From a virus, in IMG/VR virus record IMGVR_UViG_3300033991_000095, positions 1 to 28,095 of that record: a stretch of DNA of 28,095 nucleotides; one strand, written 5' to 3'. The first letter of the stretch is position 1, and the number at the start of each line of letters is the position of its first letter. This document shows positions 7,466 through 18,450 of this stretch, one piece after another. Position numbers and translations under genes: made by a program. A model generated the notes under the pieces. It saw only the letters and a program-made list of their open reading frames with translations, was not told where the DNA came from and made no database searches.

Positions 7466-7693
7466 ATGCCAACAGTAGCAGACTACGATGAGCTAATTCG
7501 ATTAGCACAGAGGGCAGTGCGACTTCAAAGAAAAAGAGATTTGATTGTCGAGGGTAAGGTGATAGTTCGCGACCCCATTACTCATGAAAACTTTGAACGG
7601 AGTATTGATGCAGGAGCTATTGCCACTTTGGATGGAAAGATAGCTACAGCAGAGGCTGATTTAGCAAATAAGTTCGCGGCGATGTTTCCATGA
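7466..7693 (+). CDS. Small helical protein upstream of terminase
   Basis: A 75-residue protein with a strong AAGGAGG site before its ATG. It is largely helical (DYDELIRLAQRAVRLQRKRD at the N-terminus; IATLDGKIATAEADLANKFA at the C-terminus) with a short beta-prone middle. Its stop overlaps the terminase start as ATGA, so the two are translationally coupled. The position is where a small terminase subunit is often found. The length is short for that role and I see no clear helix-turn-helix, so it stays unassigned. Confidence 0.65.
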   Translation: MPTVADYDELIRLAQRAVRLQRKRDLIVEGKVIVRDPITHENFERSIDAGAIATLDGKIATAEADLANKFAAMFP

Positions 7694-9177
7694 GTGTAGC
7701 TTTACATACAATGCTAAAGAGCGAACTCCGTGCGATGGAGGATGTACTTTACTTTGTGTCAGAGCCATCGCTACTTAATGCTCCCTGGCTGTGGCCTAAA
7801 CAGAAGGAAGTCTTAAGTGGTTTCTATGATCCGAAGAAGCAATTTCGTGATATGATTCTCATTTGGGGAATGAGAGGAGGAAAAACAACTGTCGCTTCCG
7901 TAATTGCATGCTTTGAGGCATTTAAACTTATCAACATGGGTTATCCGTGTAGAAAGTACGGATTGCCTAAGGGCACTGAAATCTTTATCATCAATGTAGC
8001 TACCTCAGACAGGCAAGCTCGTGATACTGTTTTTGCTCATACGAAAGCAAGGATAGATAACTCTCCATGGTTTCAGAGGCAGAAGTATACGGAGCATTTT
8101 AATGAGTTTATTTTCCCTGTGAAAGATGGGAGAGTAATAGTGAGAAGTGAGCATTCGAATAGCGCCTCTCTAGCAGGCAAAACCGTCATCTGCGTTACTT
8201 TTGATGAGTTATCGAGATTTAAGGACACCGGTGGAAATTCATCGGCAGAGATGGTTTATGACACCTTGAGTAGGTCAGTAAGAACGTTTGGACATGATGG
8301 AAAGAGAGTTGTTATTACTAGTCCTATGTATCAGGGTGATTTTGCAATGGAATTGTATAATCTCTATAAGAATAATGAAAGGTGGTTCTGCAGAAGATGG
8401 CCCACATGGGAGGTAAATCCTACTATTACGTTTGAAAATCTTGAGGATGAATTTGCTAAAGACCCTGAAACTGCGTGGAGGGACTACGGTGCAACTCCTT
8501 CAGCCTCCTTAGAGGTTTATTTTAAGGAACCGTCAAAAATTGAAATATGCATGACGGAGAAGAAGAATCCTGTTAATCCGGAAGGAGTAACTCCAACAGA
8601 CCAGCTTAAAGACTTTAAAGGAATCAAAGGTATTCCTTATACCCTTGCAGGTGACCCTGCATTGAAAAATGATGCGTTTGGCCTTGCTCTAGTGCACATC
8701 GATAATAAGACTGATTTTGTGATATGTGATTTATTACACAGATTCACTGCACACAATACAAGAGAGGAAGGGGACCAAACGAAAACAGCTCGTGAAGTGA
8801 ATGCCGGATTTGTAAGGGAATTTATTCATGAGCTTAATAAGAGATGTTGGATTGAGACATTTTTAACGGATACCTGGCAATTTCCTGAGACTATACAGAG
8901 CATTCGAGCAGATGGAATTGAGGTTGAACAGAATCATGTTACTAAGACGGAGTATGATAGATTGAAGGAGCTCATGTATACTAAAAGGATTGAGCTTCCA
9001 CACTATCCGTTTGTAATTGAGGAGTTAAAGGGATTAGAGTTAAAGCGGGGAGAGCGTGTTGACCACCCAAGAAGCGGCTCAAAAGACGTTGCTGACGCAC
9101 TAGCGAATGCAACGTGGTATGCAACTAGTTCTCCGGCAGCATCGGAAGAGCCTATAGCAGTTTCGTTTGGGTTGTGA
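7690..9177 (+). CDS. terL: Terminase large subunit (DNA-packaging ATPase and nuclease)
   Basis: This 495-residue protein has both halves of a large terminase. The ATPase shows Walker A GMRGGKTT at residues 60-67, Walker B VICVTFDE at 166-173 with D172 and E173, and the coupling motif VVITSP at 207-212. The RNase H-like nuclease shows its acidic residues at D322 (AGDPALKND), D394 (FLTDTWQ) and D466/D469 (SKDVADAL). It would dock on the portal, drive DNA into the prohead and cut the concatemer. It overlaps the upstream small gene by ATGA and is followed four bases later by the portal. No recognisable small subunit lies next to it. Confidence 0.95.
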   Translation: MSVALHTMLKSELRAMEDVLYFVSEPSLLNAPWLWPKQKEVLSGFYDPKKQFRDMILIWGMRGGKTTVASVIACFEAFKLINMGYPCRKYGLPKGTEIFIINVATSDRQARDTVFAHTKARIDNSPWFQRQKYTEHFNEFIFPVKDGRVIVRSEHSNSASLAGKTVICVTFDELSRFKDTGGNSSAEMVYDTLSRSVRTFGHDGKRVVITSPMYQGDFAMELYNLYKNNERWFCRRWPTWEVNPTITFENLEDEFAKDPETAWRDYGATPSASLEVYFKEPSKIEICMTEKKNPVNPEGVTPTDQLKDFKGIKGIPYTLAGDPALKNDAFGLALVHIDNKTDFVICDLLHRFTAHNTREEGDQTKTAREVNAGFVREFIHELNKRCWIETFLTDTWQFPETIQSIRADGIEVEQNHVTKTEYDRLKELMYTKRIELPHYPFVIEELKGLELKRGERVDHPRSGSKDVADALANATWYATSSPAASEEPIAVSFGL

Positions 9178-9181
9178 TAAA

Positions 9182-10504
9182 ATGGACCCTTTCAATAAGA
9201 AGAGAGTTGTAGCATTGGAGAATGAAGTTAAACAGGTCAGACAACAATTAAGCGATAATAGTAAGAAGGAGTTGTCTGCTGTGTTGTATGGTAGCGTGTG
9301 GGATGTAGAGTCCTGGTTAGATAAGATAGATGAGGACCTTTATGTTGAAGGGCCCATGGATGCATACAGAAAGGTTGCATTAGTTGCACAGTGCATTAAT
9401 GGTACTTCTCATTACGCTACGAGAAAAGGTTTTAGAACAAGTATCACCCAGGATGATGATAAAGGTAAGGGTGCTCTTGACTATATCAATGCAATTAATA
9501 GACAGGTAAATATGGATAATGTGATTGCTATTGCAATAGTTAAGAGGGAAATATATGGAAGAGCGGCATTTGAGATTGTTAGGGATGAACAGGGGCAAAT
9601 TGTTGCGTTGTTACCCTTAAGGTCGAGTTTGATACGACCTCATATTGACCCTGAGACTCAAATGGCTGATTACTTCGAGTATAGTGAGGCGAAGGATGGT
9701 AAGCTACAATTAAAAGATGTTTTGTATTTCTCTAGGCTGTCATTGCATAGGGATATGAGAGGACAAAGTGCAATAACACCGATAATGAATGTAATCAAGT
9801 TAAAGTTGGAGTTGTATAAGGACCTTTTAGAAAGTGCGAAGAGGCTCTGGGCCCCAATGGGATTGTTTCAGATGGATACCACCGACTTGAGGGACCCTCT
9901 TAAAAAGGAAGCGAGAATGAGAGAGTTTGCAAATCAGCTTAAACCAGGGAGGAGCATTATCTATAATACGGCGGTAGAGGGAAAGGTAGTTGACTTAAAG
10001 CCTGATATCATGGGTTTAGTGCGTGCAATTGAGAAAGCTGACGAGGAAATTATGGGTAATTGGCAAATGCCAAAGGCAATCTTCGCGAGAGAGAAGTCAA
10101 TTACTAAAGCTACACTATCAGCAGCTTTAAATGCACTTTATGAGGGACCGATTGAGAGTGTTCAGAGGTATTTCAAAAGAGAACTCGAAAGGCAATGGTA
10201 CGATATGATAGTTAGAGAATATCTGAAGTTGGACCCATTGGTATATTCGGTGAAACACCTTTGGAATCCTGTGGTAATTTTGGATTCAACACTAATTCGG
10301 TCTCTTGCATATGCAGTGCGTGTTGGTGCTATGACTAAGGAGGAGTTCTTCCACACTATGGGGTGGGAAATATTAACTCCAACTACTGCTATGCCGCCTG
10401 TTCAAGATATTTCAACACCAGATGATTTCGAGAATTTGATAGCTGAAGTTCAGGATGTTAGAGATGCACTATCTGAGCCGAAAGAATTTCCAGAGGAGGA
10501 GTGA
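9182..10504 (+). CDS. Portal protein
   Basis: A 440-residue protein starting at ATG 9182; an in-frame TTG at 9167 inside the terminase end is less likely. It opens with a short coiled coil (VVALENEVKQVRQQL). The core has portal signatures: an AIAIVKREIYGRAAFEIV strand-helix region, YFSRLSLHRDMRGQSAITPI leading to a long helix (MNVIKLKLELYKDLLESAKR), and a later QMPKAIFAREKSITKATLSA segment equivalent to the tunnel-loop region of HK97/SPP1-type portals. Length, motifs and position directly after the terminase agree. The dodecameric ring would form the DNA channel and bind the neck. Confidence 0.9.
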   Translation: MDPFNKKRVVALENEVKQVRQQLSDNSKKELSAVLYGSVWDVESWLDKIDEDLYVEGPMDAYRKVALVAQCINGTSHYATRKGFRTSITQDDDKGKGALDYINAINRQVNMDNVIAIAIVKREIYGRAAFEIVRDEQGQIVALLPLRSSLIRPHIDPETQMADYFEYSEAKDGKLQLKDVLYFSRLSLHRDMRGQSAITPIMNVIKLKLELYKDLLESAKRLWAPMGLFQMDTTDLRDPLKKEARMREFANQLKPGRSIIYNTAVEGKVVDLKPDIMGLVRAIEKADEEIMGNWQMPKAIFAREKSITKATLSAALNALYEGPIESVQRYFKRELERQWYDMIVREYLKLDPLVYSVKHLWNPVVILDSTLIRSLAYAVRVGAMTKEEFFHTMGWEILTPTTAMPPVQDISTPDDFENLIAEVQDVRDALSEPKEFPEEE

Positions 10505-10506
10505 AT

Positions 10507-11103
10507 ATGGAGGAGAAACAGCTGAAAGATGTCAATGAGCTTGTGGAGATAGGGCTTGCGACCTACGTTGAACTAGAGAATAAGCAGTATAAGACAGAAC
10601 CCCCATCTGGAGTTAGACCTGGTCAAGCAGAGCCTGAGAGTCATACACATATCGCGGTTGTAGATGAAATGGGTATGGGAGATACAAAACCAGATGCAAC
10701 AAGGCATGTGCATAAAGTGCGAAATTGGGTTGCTTTGTACTCGGGTGTTGGACCCCACATTCATAAGATAGTTCGAATGCAGGCTAACTCCTATGAATGC
10801 TCGTGTGTGAAGTGCGGGTTTACTATGCTTACGGAGAAACACTGTGTTGATATTAAATGTCCGAAGTGTGGTAGTGAGATGAGAAGGGCTGACCGAACGG
10901 GAAGAGGTACGGGAACTCCAACGAAGACCAGAGAGAATATGGCAGTTATAACGGAGATGTCGCACGGTCACCAGCATCAAGCAAATGTGAATGATGTTGG
11001 CAATGGAGCTACATACCGAGATGATACTGGTCATATGCACTTGGTTAAGAATTGGATTGCTGAGAAGGGTGAATTGAATCACCAGCACGTAATCAAGAAG
11101 TGA
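10507..11103 (+). CDS. Zinc-ribbon protein flanked by two histidine-pair modules
   Basis: A 198-residue protein starting at ATG 10507, placed by GAGGAGG at 10493-10499. Its centre is a probable zinc ribbon, with C100-x2-C103 and C118-x2-C121 (IKCPKCGSEMRRADR) plus C98 and C113. On each side is a module with three His-x-His pairs. The first uses H46/H48, H67/H69 and H84/H86; the second uses H155/H157, H176/H178 and H192/H194. In each, a D-E/D-x-G-x-G turn follows the first pair and an NW follows the second. A third copy lies inside the giant protein encoded next. Similar HxH pairs bind metal in some viral trimeric fibres. Position between portal and protease suggests a prohead component. Confidence 0.7.
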   Translation: MEEKQLKDVNELVEIGLATYVELENKQYKTEPPSGVRPGQAEPESHTHIAVVDEMGMGDTKPDATRHVHKVRNWVALYSGVGPHIHKIVRMQANSYECSCVKCGFTMLTEKHCVDIKCPKCGSEMRRADRTGRGTGTPTKTRENMAVITEMSHGHQHQANVNDVGNGATYRDDTGHMHLVKNWIAEKGELNHQHVIKK

Positions 11104-11107
11104 ACGA

Positions 11108-14100
11108 ATGCCGTTCTATAAGGGTCGCAATTGGAAGAGTCTTCCTGACTCGGAGTTAGTCTGGGCTCATTGGAGAATACATCAAGCTTGGGGTCTTTAT
11201 CAAAAATACGGGAAGTATAACGATTATAAGGGCAACTCCTGGTCGAAGGAAGACTTTTACAATCAGCATAAGCTAATATATGATGAGATGAAGAGAAGAG
11301 GAATGAATGTCGACCCTAATGACCCTATGCTAAGGATTGGACCACATCCGAGAAAGCAAGATAAGTGGGATGATATTCATATTGGTCCGTTGAAAGAAGA
11401 AGATATTGAGCGGTGTGTGAGGGATAGACAGTGGCAAAAGTTTAGAGAGGGATTGGAAGGTTTGCCGCTTTATAACAGATATGAAAGACTTAAATGTTGG
11501 TTCCAAAGTAACACACCCTGTGCAAAAATTCAAGTGACAAACTATATTAATGCCCTTCGCAGAAGCGGGCTACTGGAGGGGATAGCAATGGATAAACCTA
11601 AGAAACTCATGATGTTTCTGGTAGGCGCAGAAAAGAAACCGATTGCTGATTTGGCAGATGGGGTTATGATTAGCGCTGTCCAGATTAAGTCAAGAAATAT
11701 GCTAATGCCATGGTTGGATACGTATAAGGGTAAAATTATGATGGACAATGGAATTTTCAGCAATATAGTGATGTCCGTCGAGGAACTGGCTCAAAGAGTT
11801 AACTCAATTGAACCTCACATTGTATGCGGTCCTGATGTATTATTCGACCATGAAATTCATTTGAAGAGTCTCAAGAGACAAAAACAATTTATGGCTCAGC
11901 ATCTACCTAAGAGTACTGAAGTTATGTTGATTCCTCAGGGGAATACCTGTCTTGAGTATGAGTGGTGTATAGGTGAAATTATCAAGATGAATCCCGATTG
12001 GATTGGACTAGGTAGAATGTCAATGAAGGTGGCAGGTTACCCGGGAAAAGGACATCAGCAGAGAGTTTACTGTTTGCGAAGGTTAGAAGAGCTTGAACTG
12101 ATAGATAAGATTAAAAGTGCTGGTATCAAGATGCATGCATTGGGAGTTAGTAAACCCTTTGAATTTAGATACTTTAACCGATATGGGTTTAGTGCTTTTG
12201 ATAGTATGTCCTATATTTACGCTTCCTTATTTAATCAGCTCGTTTATCCGTTAGACTCTACGGAGAGTCAGTTCCATTTAGAAGAGGGAGTTATCAAGCG
12301 GAAGGCGAAGGAGAGCGACGAACTGTACAATGCTAAAATGGAGTTTGCAAAATCGTATCCGTGGGATAAGTCTCTAGAGGAACGACAAATTTGGATTGTA
12401 AAGAATATTTGGCGTCCGATGATGGAACAACATGCTCAAGATAAGCATGTTGAGAGGTTAACAGGAAATCTTTTATGGGACGATAGAGATGATACCCCGA
12501 TGTTGATAAAGCCTGGAACTGAGAAGATAAGAGATGCTATCCAGATGAATGATTCACTTGCCCTCGAGGACCTTAAGACAATAGATATTATGAAGTTGGA
12601 TTCGGATTATGTTCGCTCATATCATCTAATTGTGCATAATGCTTGGAATAAAGGAACTGAAAAAATGGATGTCAATGAGCTTAGGGACATCCACGATAGG
12701 ATTGTAGAGAGGATGCAAGAGCTTGGTATTTCACATCAGAGTCCACTGGTATTGGAGGATTCTCTCGCAGAGGTAAGGTCTAGTGGTCACGAAATTGGGA
12801 ATGAAGTTAATTTGCAGGATGTGCTAAAGCACTTTGAGGACTTTCGAGTTTCATGGCCCCACGTCTATCTGACTGGAGGGATTGTTAATAGGGGTAAAAC
12901 AAAAGGTGATATTGATATTTTGATTAGGACTGTCAAAAATGACCCTATGAATGTACCCATTATGTTTAGGATTCTAAGAATGTTACCTCCCGAGCTAAGT
13001 GAAAGAGTGCAGTTTCTCTTTGAAGATACCACCGAGAAGTTTGGTCACGTACCAGGACCATATACGAATCATGTTCCTCTCTACGGGGTTCAGTTGCATA
13101 CTTTGAAGCCGTTTAGTACAGTTGAAATGGAGGCTAAAGTTAGTGTTGGAAAGTTTTTCACTCCGCTTAAACCTACGATTGGATATAAAGTGGGAGTTGT
13201 CTACGGGTGGGATGCATTAGCTAGGCTGGTAGATGAAGATATGTATCCTGTTGTCATACAAAAAAAGTATGATGGTGCAAGAATTCAAATTCATAAGAAG
13301 GGTGAAGATATTAAGATATTCTCGGATGATGGTCACCGCATTGAGCATAGATTACCATCCTTTGTGGAAGAGCTTCAAAAGGATAACTGGCCGAGTGAAG
13401 TAATTCTCGATGCGGAATGTGAGATGTGGATAAGGGGAAAACATCAGGGAAGAGAGATTGTGAGCGGATTTCTTCGGAAGGGAGAGAAACTCTTCAAAGG
13501 TGAAGATGGCAATTTAGTAGTGAATGTGTTTGATGTGTTATACGAGAAGGAAAGCTTAGCAGATAAGCCTCTTGGGGAGAGACAATCTATCCTTGATAAA
13601 CTTCCACTTAAGCAAAGTACCGACAGAGTCCCGCGAACCGGTGAATTTAATCGGACACCCTCTTATGTGGCTAAGAATGACGGTGATATGATTAGGTTCG
13701 CTAAGAAGGTGACTACTTTACCGGGGTCTGAAGGAGCAATGGTGAAAAGTATCATGAGTAAGTATGAGCTGGATGGTCAAACTTCAGAGTGGTTTAAGTA
13801 TAAGAAGACTGTTGAATTTGTGGTGGCTGCTATTGAGAAGATAGAGACTAAGACCCCGGGAGTATACAACTACCGGATGGGAGTAAACCCTAAAGGGATG
13901 GATATAGCGGAGTCAGATATTAAGACGGTTGATGGACACAAGTATGCTTACGTGGGAAAAACAATGAACACTACAATTAGTGTTCCCATTGGAACCTCTC
14001 TAAGGGTCTCAGCGGAAAATGTTTTCTTATATCATGATAAACTTAGGTTGTACTTGCCTATTGTTTTAGAAGCTAAGAGCAATGATAAGGTATATGATGT

Positions 14101-16138
14101 AACTACAACTATCGATGTGGCAAGAGAAGCAGGTTTATTACAAGAGAAGGAAATGCAAACTGAATGGCCAAGTGAACAGAAGAAACATAAGTTTGTGATA
14201 CAACATCATTTCAGGGGAAAGTCAGTACATACGGATTTCAGGTGTCAAGTAAACGATGAACTTGAGGGGTGGACTATATTTTCACAACCTCCTGGAGTTG
14301 TTAAGCAGGAGCCGGATAATAAACAAGAGGCTAAAAGGATTGCCGATAATATTAAATGGAAATGGCCAAAAACCGATGTCCACGCACAAGCAGGACCGAA
14401 ATCACCTCAACCTGTTGAGTGGTTAAAGGTAGAAGGAAAGTTTGACCCTGGTGAAGTTGGGGCAACAAGAGAGAAGCCGGGGTATATGTTGATAGAGGAT
14501 AAAGGAGAAGTGGAATTTGGAGCGAGGAAACCCTACTTCTATGAATACTTCCTCCATGGAACTAAAACTGATGGTAGACTTATCTTTAGGTATATTCCAC
14601 GACAGGGTCTTATAGCGGAAGTGCAAACTGAGGATAATGATAATCATTTCCACACGGTTAAAATCGATGAGAAAGGGAATGGTAAAACTACTGTGGCAGA
14701 TAATCACTTCCATGAGGTTGTTAAGTGGGAGATTCAAAGAGAGCAGAACCACGTACATACACTGCCTTGGTCTGAATCTCCTATAGAGCAGGTATATGAT
14801 GAGGATTTGCGATTGCAGAGAGAAACCGGCTTTTGGAATACATGGCTTCCTGAAGATGAGGAACCGTATGTATTAAGTAGGGGTGCAGTTAATGATAACT
14901 GGATTCCACCACAGGGTATAAGTGCTTTGCCAAAACTAATGAGGGACAAAATTCCATCTAAATACCAGTACTGGCATCCAGCTAGTCGTACAGAACGTAT
15001 TCGGATTAGAAATGAGTTGCGAAAAGCCAAAGAGATTAAATTCAAGGTGAAACAAAAGTACGATGAACACCATTATTTGTTGGAGAAAGATGGTGACCAC
15101 TACCTTGGAACTGCACCTATTTGTAAATATAAAGAGGGAGATGAAGCTACTTGGGCGTGTTTCGAGAATGTGGTTGAAATTGATTTGCAAAGAAATTCTT
15201 TTGTTCTTCAGCATCACTGGTGGAAAGGGCAAGCAGTTATTAGGGCAGGTCCCTCGGTAGAACACTGGGATTTATTTATATTACCACAGGGCGATATGTA
15301 TGTGTTGAATTCTAATCCGCTTGAGGGTCCAACGAACGTTTCCACAAGACGTCCATATTCAAAAGCATTCTGGGAGAAGGGAGCGAGGGGGCCAGAAGCC
15401 ATTAAACCTGGTGAACCTGGCAATCCAACCAAGAATACCCCTGCATGGATTGAGATGATAGATAAGGGAGAGGTTGGTATATTGGAAGATGGAAATTTGT
15501 TTAAAAGATTTAACTTCCATGGAAAACAACTTAAGAGTACCTATACTATGAAACGAGAAGATGCGAATATAAACCTGTGGGTATTTGAAAAAGCGCAAAT
15601 GCCCGGAGAGAAATTGCAACAGTTACAGAAGGTTGTTCTCCAAGCAGGTCAGTGTGTTAAACAGCAGAATGTTTACTTAAGCATCGAGAAGTTCGGAAAG
15701 TATGGAGATAAGTTTGTTGTTACTGGTACTGCATTATCATATGGTGTTTGGAATGGGGATTGGTACCCACCACAAGTACTCGATGACCGTCCCGAGAGAG
15801 TGCTTAATATCCCCCTAGGGGTGGGTAGTCATAAGGATAAAGATAACCATGGGAAGGTTATAGACTTTGAGTATGATAATGAGAATCATACTATCAAAGT
15901 GGCAGTTGAGGTTACTTCTCCGGAAAAGCAGTTAGAAGTGGAGAATGGAGATTATGTTGGTTTTAGTGTAGAGATAACGGTATTATCGGATGATATCCGA
16001 CATATCATAGAAAAGATTGTCAGTTATGATAGGGTATGTTTGGTTAAGAACCCCGCGTGTGAGGTGTGCACAATTGAGCGAATTGAAGGTAAAGCAGCTG
16101 GTAGAAAAAGCCATTGTCGGTATTACAGTAAGCAATAG
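11108..16138 (+). CDS. Giant fusion: TGT-like, nucleotidyltransferase, ATP-DNA ligase, two phosphoesterase-like domains, prohead protease
   Basis: This is one uninterrupted 1676-residue frame. In order: a helical H-rich domain (6-66); a TIM-barrel domain resembling tRNA-guanine transglycosylase/DpdA (about 160-380; MMDNG 211-215, GPD 241-243, PQGNT 276-280, GLGR 300-303, HALG 343-346); a second helical domain (493-545); a nucleotidyltransferase (588-664; GG...GDIDILI, D601, D603); an ATP-dependent DNA ligase core (681-900; KYDGAR with K720, SDDGHRI, LDAECE, EGAMVK, WFKYKK) with an OB-like region; a LigD-type phosphoesterase (1026-1165; H1033, H1041, D1043, R1045); a histidine-pair module (1180-1217); a second phosphoesterase-like domain (1363-1495); and a prohead-protease-like domain (1530-1660; H1575, S1620, VCLVKNPACEVCTI). 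It sits where a prohead protease gene belongs. Autocatalytic processing and packaging of the enzymes as cargo are inferences. Confidence 0.85.
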   Translation: MPFYKGRNWKSLPDSELVWAHWRIHQAWGLYQKYGKYNDYKGNSWSKEDFYNQHKLIYDEMKRRGMNVDPNDPMLRIGPHPRKQDKWDDIHIGPLKEEDIERCVRDRQWQKFREGLEGLPLYNRYERLKCWFQSNTPCAKIQVTNYINALRRSGLLEGIAMDKPKKLMMFLVGAEKKPIADLADGVMISAVQIKSRNMLMPWLDTYKGKIMMDNGIFSNIVMSVEELAQRVNSIEPHIVCGPDVLFDHEIHLKSLKRQKQFMAQHLPKSTEVMLIPQGNTCLEYEWCIGEIIKMNPDWIGLGRMSMKVAGYPGKGHQQRVYCLRRLEELELIDKIKSAGIKMHALGVSKPFEFRYFNRYGFSAFDSMSYIYASLFNQLVYPLDSTESQFHLEEGVIKRKAKESDELYNAKMEFAKSYPWDKSLEERQIWIVKNIWRPMMEQHAQDKHVERLTGNLLWDDRDDTPMLIKPGTEKIRDAIQMNDSLALEDLKTIDIMKLDSDYVRSYHLIVHNAWNKGTEKMDVNELRDIHDRIVERMQELGISHQSPLVLEDSLAEVRSSGHEIGNEVNLQDVLKHFEDFRVSWPHVYLTGGIVNRGKTKGDIDILIRTVKNDPMNVPIMFRILRMLPPELSERVQFLFEDTTEKFGHVPGPYTNHVPLYGVQLHTLKPFSTVEMEAKVSVGKFFTPLKPTIGYKVGVVYGWDALARLVDEDMYPVVIQKKYDGARIQIHKKGEDIKIFSDDGHRIEHRLPSFVEELQKDNWPSEVILDAECEMWIRGKHQGREIVSGFLRKGEKLFKGEDGNLVVNVFDVLYEKESLADKPLGERQSILDKLPLKQSTDRVPRTGEFNRTPSYVAKNDGDMIRFAKKVTTLPGSEGAMVKSIMSKYELDGQTSEWFKYKKTVEFVVAAIEKIETKTPGVYNYRMGVNPKGMDIAESDIKTVDGHKYAYVGKTMNTTISVPIGTSLRVSAENVFLYHDKLRLYLPIVLEAKSNDKVYDVTTTIDVAREAGLLQEKEMQTEWPSEQKKHKFVIQHHFRGKSVHTDFRCQVNDELEGWTIFSQPPGVVKQEPDNKQEAKRIADNIKWKWPKTDVHAQAGPKSPQPVEWLKVEGKFDPGEVGATREKPGYMLIEDKGEVEFGARKPYFYEYFLHGTKTDGRLIFRYIPRQGLIAEVQTEDNDNHFHTVKIDEKGNGKTTVADNHFHEVVKWEIQREQNHVHTLPWSESPIEQVYDEDLRLQRETGFWNTWLPEDEEPYVLSRGAVNDNWIPPQGISALPKLMRDKIPSKYQYWHPASRTERIRIRNELRKAKEIKFKVKQKYDEHHYLLEKDGDHYLGTAPICKYKEGDEATWACFENVVEIDLQRNSFVLQHHWWKGQAVIRAGPSVEHWDLFILPQGDMYVLNSNPLEGPTNVSTRRPYSKAFWEKGARGPEAIKPGEPGNPTKNTPAWIEMIDKGEVGILEDGNLFKRFNFHGKQLKSTYTMKREDANINLWVFEKAQMPGEKLQQLQKVVLQAGQCVKQQNVYLSIEKFGKYGDKFVVTGTALSYGVWNGDWYPPQVLDDRPERVLNIPLGVGSHKDKDNHGKVIDFEYDNENHTIKVAVEVTSPEKQLEVENGDYVGFSVEITVLSDDIRHIIEKIVSYDRVCLVKNPACEVCTIERIEGKAAGRKSHCRYYSKQ
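11575..11590 (+). promoter_or_regulatory. Possible internal ribosome binding site and start inside the giant ORF
   Basis: GGAGGG at 11575-11580 lies seven bases before an in-frame ATG at 11588, which encodes M161. This is exactly where the TGT-like domain begins. A shorter product lacking the first helical domain could be made, or this could be an ancestral start retained after a fusion. Confidence 0.4.
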
Positions 16139-16145
16139 ACCTAAG

Positions 16146-16481
16146 ATGAGATATCATATTAAGTTGTTTCCTTACGTTGAGGTCTCTGGAGAAAGAGTAC
16201 ACCTAGAGGTGTTACAATCAGAGTTATTAAAGTTCTCTGTGGGAAGTACCCTCCGGCCTAAGTTCCTTAGAATTCAGGGAATTGAAAATTGTTCCATTAT
16301 GACGAGATTTTTGGACAAAAATAAATACCAATGGTGGTTTGAATGTATGGAGCTTTTTGTTGATAAACAACATCTCTCTCGCAAAGGAATTAAAACTATA
16401 TTAAATAAAAGACCTTTCGTAAAAAATCAGGGACTGAGGGTCAAAGACCAGGAAATAATACACGCTTTAATGTCCGCTTAA
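16146..16481 (+). CDS. Hypothetical protein, AT-rich, between giant ORF and capsid operon
   Basis: A frame encoding 111 residues from ATG 16146, eight bases after the giant ORF stop. The frame is open further upstream (to 16017), overlapping the giant ORF, but those starts lack a ribosome binding site; the ATG at 16146 also has none that is clear. The product is basic and mixed alpha/beta (MRYHIKLFPYVEVSGERVHL at the N-terminus; a KYQWWFECMELFVDKQHL segment later), with no family that I recognise. The DNA looks AT-richer than the flanking genes. It may be a recent acquisition or an accessory factor placed just ahead of the capsid promoter. Confidence 0.5.
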   Translation: MRYHIKLFPYVEVSGERVHLEVLQSELLKFSVGSTLRPKFLRIQGIENCSIMTRFLDKNKYQWWFECMELFVDKQHLSRKGIKTILNKRPFVKNQGLRVKDQEIIHALMSA

Positions 16482-17606: not shown

Positions 17607-17634
17607 GGATAGCCGTTGACAAGAGGTGAAAAAC

Positions 17635-18450
17635 ATGCCAGGAATTATAGTAGCAGATGATATATCAGACGGCATGAAAGCGGAACTCATCGTCGAAGAG
17701 GTTCTTGGTCTCGCACACCCGAAGTATAACTTGAGGCCATTTGCCAGGGTCATCGATACAGGCACCAAGAGGTCCGGAAAATGGCCAGTATCCACGAAGC
17801 TTGCTGGTCATGAGAAGGTACCTCCGCTTGTGGAAGCTCCCTTGAGTGCACAAGCATACCAGGACATCGATTTCGAACTGTGGAAGAACGTTGTTCACGT
17901 TGCCATAAGCCGTGAAGCTGAGATGGAGAGCAAAGTGGACATCATGAGGATGAACACCAAGGATGCTGCGAGGGACCTCGCAAGAATGGAGAACAAACAG
18001 ATTGCCGAGGTTATCACAGGATTCACGGATGTTCCTGGTGGTGACTGGACGGGTACCGATAGCCCGTTGGATGACATCATGCCATTAGTGGCAGTTATCC
18101 AGGACCTTGGTTACGACCCAAATGCCCTTATCATGCAATCACAGGTATACGCGTACTTCCTTGCGAATGAGAACATTAAGGAAGTGTATGAGCGCGGTGC
18201 TGTGGTTGCAAGGGGTGGCATCCAGATGTTGGGCAACTTGAAGATTGCTGCTGAGTCCTCTCTGGTTGCGGAGACCGCATTCCTTGCTGATACCGAGGCA
18301 CCCGCCATTGCATTGTTCGATGGACCTTCCATAGTGGAGCAATACACTATGCAAGCGAAGTTCGCAAGAGGTTATGCCATTGCGAAGTTCCTACAGCCGT
18401 ACAAGGTACTTGACGATGCTGGTAGGGAGATGACCGGTCTGCTGTCGTAA
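17635..18450 (+). CDS. Major capsid protein (HK97 fold)
   Basis: A 271-residue protein starting at ATG 17635, set by GAGGTGA at 17623-17629; an in-frame GTG at 17626 overlaps that site. An N-terminal helical stretch (SDGMKAELIVEEVLGLAHP) is followed by an E-loop-like strand region (ARVIDTGTKRSGKWPVSTKL), a long spine-helix segment (TKDAARDLARMENKQIAEVI), and a P-domain/A-domain (DPNALIMQSQVYAYFLAN; ALFDGPSIVEQYTM), ending in a beta strand. Length and order fit HK97-fold shell proteins without a large N-terminal delta domain, consistent with the separate scaffold gene upstream. Its codons favour C-ending choices, as expected for the most abundant virion protein. Confidence 0.9.
   Translation: MPGIIVADDISDGMKAELIVEEVLGLAHPKYNLRPFARVIDTGTKRSGKWPVSTKLAGHEKVPPLVEAPLSAQAYQDIDFELWKNVVHVAISREAEMESKVDIMRMNTKDAARDLARMENKQIAEVITGFTDVPGGDWTGTDSPLDDIMPLVAVIQDLGYDPNALIMQSQVYAYFLANENIKEVYERGAVVARGGIQMLGNLKIAAESSLVAETAFLADTEAPAIALFDGPSIVEQYTMQAKFARGYAIAKFLQPYKVLDDAGREMTGLLS

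Follow-up and report, generated by a model that had tools for sequence, protein, structure and literature searches.

We analysed a stretch of viral DNA of 28,095 nucleotides (IMG/VR record IMGVR_UViG_3300033991_000095, the whole of which is called here the window) in which a single open reading frame (ORF) of 1676 codons, at 11108-16138 on the plus strand, joins a TGT-like barrel, a nucleotidyltransferase (NT)-like domain, an ATP-dependent DNA ligase and two LigD phosphoesterase (PE)-like domains to a C-terminal region predicted to be a prohead protease. We judge it about an even chance (roughly 0.5) that this fused ORF encodes a late 'polyvalent' polyprotein, which is tied to the prohead by its protease domain and whose DNA enzymes are then freed by that protease. 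The computed basis of this reading comprises an intact ORF under selection, the fold and residues of the protease, the ligase motifs, the fold of the TGT barrel and its linkage with preQ0 genes, the adjacency to the portal gene and the recurrence of C-terminal protease fusions among relatives. The presence of the same toolkit in the same place in more than 100 related virus fragments suggests that genome modification and repair are tied to head assembly in these viruses.

The fused ORF and its C-terminal protease domain

Translation of the window gave one uninterrupted frame of 1676 residues, and a protein scan of viral contigs recovered, from two IMG/VR contigs (L002 and L003), a 1652-residue orthologue without internal stops and about 72-73% identical over the whole length. 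The single open frame reported by the first-pass annotation of this sequence was thus borne out. When the window was compared with L003, pN was 0.13-0.27 and pS 0.70-0.95 across the domains, with synonymous sites saturated, and every domain of the fused ORF is under purifying selection in this comparison. Intact orthologues together with selection rule out that the overall arrangement arose from an assembly join, and thereby also the frameshift or join which the first-pass annotation had named as able to refute it. Iterated profiles over all ORFs gave the domain order listed below. Ligase (PF01068) was the sole clear domain in the Pfam scan of the fused ORF, while the remaining domains were identified via relatives; a sub-threshold Pyr_excise match at residues 10-72 was weak.

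11108..16138, +: whole fused ORF, 1676 aa; intact orthologue in L002/L003, purifying selection in every domain
11108..11587, +: N-terminal helical region, residues 1-160; similar stretches stand-alone or duplicated in L005 and L008
11588..12547, +: TGT/DpdA-like barrel, residues 161-480; fold, PHROG match, conserved D213 (DNGIF) and D365 (DS)
12548..12787, +: helical linker region, residues 481-560; iterated profiles
12788..13177, +: nucleotidyltransferase-like domain, residues 561-690, GG(9)GDIDILI; conserved motif only
13178..13822, +: ATP-dependent DNA ligase adenylation domain, residues 691-905; PF01068 E 2.3e-25, motifs
13823..14167, +: ligase OB-fold region, residues 906-1020; motif VI weak in the window virus
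14168..14611, +: LigD-PE-like domain 1 (PE1), residues 1021-1168; HxDxR H1041/D1043/R1045 conserved
14612..15097, +: family-specific conserved insert, residues 1169-1330; contains the His-rich HxH motif common to ORF 10501-11103
15125..15622, +: PE-like domain 2 (PE2), residues 1340-1505; active-site positions degenerate
15650..16135, +: predicted prohead protease domain, residues 1515-1676; invariant H1575 and S1620, modelled fold like that of T4 gp21

As judged from its modelled fold, the C-terminus of the fused ORF is a prohead protease of the gp21/XkdF type, for which proteolysis is predicted. This identity follows from structural re-alignment, invariant residues and profile-matched relatives taken together. 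The predicted structure of the domain (pLDDT 81) re-aligned best with T4 gp21 (Z 12.9, rmsd 2.7, 125 residues), after which herpesvirus assemblins ranked at Z 6-9; by Foldseek alone the matches were weak, with assemblins at the top of the list, the best at E 0.012 and none below E 0.001. H1575 and S1620 were invariant in 23 of 23 relatives, and S1620 was conserved in 86 of 86 sequences of a larger family alignment. The window domain itself gave no match to PF04586 or PF14550 in the Pfam scan, whereas relatives match at 1e-14 to 1e-30: Peptidase_S78 was matched by 4 of the 23 (best 1.2e-14) and XkdF by 4, and in other fused ORFs XkdF occupies the same position with E values of 1e-17 to 1e-30. 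The gene also lies between the portal gene and those for scaffold and major capsid protein (MCP), as expected of a prohead protease. The earlier claim of such a protease in a head operon, joined in one chain with DNA enzymes of about 1,500 residues, is upheld by the gp21 match, which excludes the objection that the region might lack this fold, and by the occurrence of the arrangement in dozens of viruses. Some protease and scaffold genes are translated separately from an internal start. We found no internal start with a Shine-Dalgarno (SD)-like site ahead of the protease that is conserved in window and orthologue, hence separate translation of the protease is unlikely and was rejected.

The DNA enzymes and the linked preQ0 genes

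The ligase carries motifs I, III, IIIa, IV and V of ATP-dependent DNA ligases (KYDGAR at 720, LDAECE, EGAMVK at 875 and WFKYKK at 895), of which motif I belonged to the search pattern and motifs IV and V did not. In the family alignment K720 and E770 were each kept in 84 of 85 sequences and K897 in 78 of 78; in motif VI of the OB-fold P984 is kept in most members and the following Arg position is I985 in the window. The motif GG...GDIDILI of the NT-like domain lies at residue 590, with D601 conserved in 81/83 and D603 in 87/87 members across the family. Since no Pfam or PDB profile matched this domain, it is named by its motif only, and of the nucleotidyltransferase proposed earlier it is the conserved GG...GDxD motif that stands. 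All the motifs which the first-pass annotation had named, including SVHTDFR, H1575, S1620 and VKNPAC at 1646, were found at their places, with catalytic positions conserved family-wide.

PE1 retains HxDxR (SVHTDFR at 1039), H1041 and D1043 being present in 96 of 96 members and R1045 in 95, and its profile matches the LigD-PE structures 3p4h (E 2.6e-4) and 3p43 (E 6.9e-4). The equivalents of His84/Tyr88, the second catalytic pair of LigD PE, are Q/E and W in nearly all members. PE2 (about 1340-1505), which had gone unseen in the first reading, is degenerate at active-site positions. With an altered second pair in PE1 and a degenerate PE2, the evidence reaches no further than 'LigD-PE-like', so that the LigD-type phosphoesterase named earlier holds for the HxDxR motif and not for the two replaced residues. 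Pfam and NCBIfam scans detected no LigD polymerase/primase-like domain in the fused ORF. The analogy with LigD-type end joining is accordingly weakened and was not supported, as the PE residues are changed, no polymerase domain was detected and, among relatives, the ligase is absent more often than any other part.

The structure model of residues 1-490, containing the barrel, was of moderate confidence (pLDDT 70). Its top Foldseek match was the DNA preQ0 insertase DpdA (7ui4, E 6e-7), and in structural re-alignment many TGTs ranked together at Z 15-16; PHROG 887 (queuine tRNA-ribosyltransferase) matched 4 of the 5 TGT members, which together with the fold confirms the TGT-like barrel seen at first. 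D213 (DNGIF) and D365 (DS) are conserved in 5/5 and are proposed as the catalytic pair. The barrel scored 16.9 bits with the NCBIfam DpdA equivalog profile, far below its cut-off of 200, and for this reason is called 'DpdA-like'. At the start of the TGT domain, a GGAGG followed by ATG at residue 161 (about 11588) is common to window and orthologue and may be an internal translation start.

We argued that viruses with a TGT barrel should make or use preQ0. The gene queC was present in all three TGT-bearing contigs of 41 kb or more against one of 25 TGT-free contigs (~45 kb or more), a contrast (Fisher one-sided P ~0.001, computed by hand) that serves as a guide only, the contigs being related and incomplete. 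QueC was found on the orthologue's 41-kb contig (E 5e-68), on a second TGT-bearing contig and likewise on a third, which was found after the first two, and PTPS/QueD-type and radical-SAM genes were present on both TGT-bearing contigs tested. In the orthologous virus (G001; L139, L143, L144) QueD-like, radical-SAM, GTP-cyclohydrolase-like, UDG-like and QueC genes lie within a few kb, the GTP-cyclohydrolase-like and UDG-like ORFs beside QueC being read from sequence. None of these genes was seen in the 28 kb of the window. The TGT module and the viral preQ0 genes of the larger TGT-bearing contigs point to genome modification in the producing cell, for which the earlier proposal, that the enzymes clean ends or circularise the genome on entry, does not account. 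Cap10 was also among the Foldseek matches, and a Type IV CBASS-like use of the TGT was considered; it is disfavoured, since preQ0 genes and neighbours directed at DNA are in keeping with DNA modification.

A family of head-operon modules

Relatives were collected by a scan with an alignment including ANMV-1 virus, which gave 48 related loci, and by a PE-based scan, which gave 80 viral loci (several on contigs already found) and 10 loci in genome contigs. For the genome contigs a closer subset of the PE alignment was used, as the full alignment was short of conserved stretches; these 10 loci came from bins labelled Planctomycetota, Myxococcales, Archaeoglobales, Euryarchaeota, Methanosarcinales, Geothermarchaeota and Thermoprotei. 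After removal of duplicates the family counted 115 distinct contigs, the window included, some of them close relatives of each other. Ligase, PE and protease were in one ORF in 32 of these; PE and protease were fused without ligase in 10; ligase and PE were fused with the protease separate in 32; all were separate in 23, and 18 were cut or incomplete. These fused relatives exclude the further objection that the domains are always separate genes. In 41 of the 42 enzyme-protease fusions the protease terminates the ORF, with at most 24 residues after it. The portal gene, where found, was upstream of the module on the same strand in 62/63 cases, and the MCP gene, where found, was downstream in 32/32. 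PE-protease is the most persistent core of the family, the fusion being kept despite ligase loss in L080-L082, L107, L135 and L148. The complete set from TGT to protease within one ORF occurs only in the window and its orthologue; in L013, L102, L148 and L150 the same parts are spread over two or three genes, L148 being without ligase. The order of modules is also shuffled, with the ligase after PE in L053, L112 and L125.

Further modules are swapped in among relatives, and judged from their matches these are nearly all DNA-directed. D12 adenine methylase domains occur in the same ORFs or operons in the 28 loci listed, up to three per protein, and share one ORF with XkdF in L023, L053, L072, L107 and L135; other uncovered segments match MBL fold, 2H/LigT, UDG, C5 methylase, PNK 3'-phosphatase and intein parts. 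Intein and LAGLIDADG domains lie within several fused head-operon ORFs (L049 and others). One Myxococcales contig (JACPVI010000063.1; L053, L054) carries two different prophage-like modules at its two ends, each with three methylase domains. In L151 (2272-11648) the TerL, TGT and PE parts are broken over overlapping frames, probably by frameshifts or assembly errors; its close relative L150 is intact. We found no description of the ligase-PE-protease family in the literature searched (open-licence papers), and the family, a large one, is apparently undescribed.

In the window the fused ORF is surrounded by the following head genes:

7690..9177, +: terminase large subunit; phrog_17415 E 1.7e-20
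9167..10504, +: portal protein; PF04860 E 5.3e-13
10501..11103, +: His-rich protein, possibly a Zn-ribbon, encoded between the portal gene and the fused ORF; shorter version in L002
16531..17211, +: scaffold-like protein; weak profile matches and position; homologues in L002, L013, L102, L148 and L150
17211..17606, +: small head protein preceding the MCP; conserved position
17626..18450, +: major capsid protein, HK97-type; phrog_1650 E 6.5e-13

A possible small gene of ~111 aa (start MRYHIKLFP), which no profile annotates, lies at 16146-16481 between the fused ORF and the scaffold gene. A His-rich motif, HxH...GxGxT...HxH, occurs twice in ORF 10501-11103 and once in the fused ORF (residues 1180-1202), and also in L002; among the loci searched by pattern no further ORF contained it. 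The hosts of the window virus are uncultured microbes, probably archaea.

Proposed role and comparison with known systems

In the reading that we prefer, the fused ORF would be expressed late as a head-operon polyprotein, and the gp21/XkdF-type protease at its C-terminus would tie the DpdA-like, NT-like, ligase and two LigD-PE-like domains to the forming prohead. The protease would then cut itself and the linkers, so that the enzymes come free within the head or at its packaging vertex, where they may act on the viral genome by modifying it and by sealing or cleaning strand breaks, during packaging or on entry into the next host. Prohead recruitment, autoproteolysis and the place and time of enzyme action are steps that we infer. 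In favour of action during packaging, ligase deficiency, as cited in PMC10893049, impairs DNA-full heads of T4, and the preQ0 genes are viral; in favour of action on entry, repair enzymes suit stored DNA, and T4, whose internal proteins are encapsidated and processed, shows that a head can take up proteins and process them (PMC3012670). Several points weigh against this reading. The protease is a separate gene in 55 contigs (32 with ligase and PE fused, 23 with all parts separate), which shows that these viruses can do without the covalent link; preQ0 genes of viral origin imply activity of the TGT module in the producing cell, something that cargo delivery does not require; a neutral fusion of adjacent late genes is conceivable; and the cleavage on which the reading depends is a predicted one.

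It is conceivable, with a probability well short of even, that the work of the enzymes is confined to the producing cell, where they would seal nicks and modify bases of the concatemer at the portal or terminase, and that they are discarded at head maturation by the protease without becoming cargo. The adjacency of the gene to that of the portal would suit such packaging-coupled repair, and the possession of preQ0 genes by the orthologous virus fits DNA modification before packaging; but the UDG, PNK phosphatase and ligase of relatives would equally suit repair of stored DNA after entry, and injection is presumed for related polyvalent proteins (Iyer, Burroughs, Anand, de Souza and Aravind 2017, PMC5512222). 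We consider it unlikely that the fusion is incidental to the late operon, the protease cutting itself off from ordinary cytoplasmic enzymes of replication, repair and modification that have no role in head assembly. While the split-gene relatives (55/115 contigs) and the shuffled modules agree with this, the protease stands at the extreme C-terminus in 41/42 fusions, the module adjoins portal or MCP wherever either was found, and PE-protease fusions survive ligase loss. Still less probable is that the PE-like and perhaps the NT-like domains are structural, as degenerate enzymes which bind DNA or scaffold and hold the protease at the portal, with ligase and TGT as later passengers: the degenerate PE2, the absence of His84/Tyr88 equivalents from PE1 and the persistence of the PE and protease core (e.g. 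L148) speak for it, but HxDxR is kept in 95-96 of 96 PE1 domains, beyond the need of a purely structural role. An assembly artefact or chance ORF, in favour of which nothing was found, is negligible in view of intact orthologues at ~72-73% identity on two contigs, purifying selection in every domain and many fused relatives.

If the polyprotein reading is true, one self-cleaving protein links capsid maturation with DNA modification and strand repair in many uncultured viruses, and a testable prediction is that cleaved enzyme fragments occur in the virion. Odd labels such as 'DNA ligase' and 'DNA methyltransferase' in head operons would thereby be explained, compact ligase, TGT and PE enzymes could be drawn from the family, and the matter touches on the means by which viruses preserve their stored genomes and conceal them from restriction. 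More tentatively, the family may represent a widespread and unrecognised head-borne genome care kit of tailed viruses of archaea and bacteria, in which a protease-processed polyprotein modifies (DpdA, Dam, Dcm), removes damage from (UDG, PNK 3'-phosphatase, PE) and seals (ligase) viral DNA in or at the capsid, as the prokaryotic equivalent of the repair enzymes that giant viruses carry in their virions.

Polyvalent proteins of phages and plasmids fuse many unrelated enzyme domains and are encoded among portal-terminase virion genes, and their assemblin-like peptidase, always C-terminal, is predicted to process them during virion assembly (PMC5512222); a peptidase of this type ending a multi-enzyme phage protein is thus a published pattern with the same proposed role. 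The fused ORF resembles them in uniting unrelated activities among portal-terminase genes with the peptidase C-terminal. On the other hand, its domains, a fixed set that recurs, belong almost without exception to enzymes of DNA modification or strand repair; the text of PMC5512222 does not mention LigD, XkdF, TGT or queuine, and the sole ligase passages found there concern RNA ligases. The present family fits the polyvalent-protein concept with a new and coherent enzyme set. In PHROG 13242 and PHROG 1530 of known phages a methylase likewise lies N-terminal to the same protease, as judged from profile match positions, but these are smaller (profiles of 379-450 positions) and without ligase, PE, NT or TGT. 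Two short prohead proteases of 154 and 212 aa (L137 3003-3467 and L136 3968-4606; PHROG 1530) are labelled 'DNA methyltransferase', a label apparently carried over from methylase-protease fusions. Tsac_2860 of Thermoanaerobacterium phage THSA-485A was rejected as such a fusion, having only head protease-type matches near its N-terminus.

ANMV-1 virus (KP703175) encodes, directly behind a portal-like gene, an 866-aa NT-ligase-OB-PE-PE protein (AJP62006), which differs from the fused ORF in lacking TGT and protease domains and is annotated only as ligase; the word ligase is absent from the main text of the ANMV-1 paper. The gene directly before it (AJP62005; L004 1913-3193) is annotated 'MutT-like phage hydrolase' yet matches a portal profile, and probably encodes the portal. 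T4 gp21 and herpesvirus assemblin share with the protease domain the predicted fold, the His/Ser residues and the prohead role predicted here, but the protease of the fused ORF ends a multi-enzyme polyprotein, with the scaffold as a separate gene. Bacterial and archaeal LigD similarly combines ligase and PE-type domains in one protein; the fused ORF differs in its altered PE active site, its domain order, its place in a viral head operon and in that no polymerase domain was detected. Finally, the barrel shares with the DNA preQ0 insertases DpdA/DpdA2 (Hutinet et al. 2019, PMC6884629) the TGT fold, the conserved Asp pair and the linked preQ0 genes, and is set apart from them by its distance below the DpdA cut-off and by its fusion into a head polyprotein.
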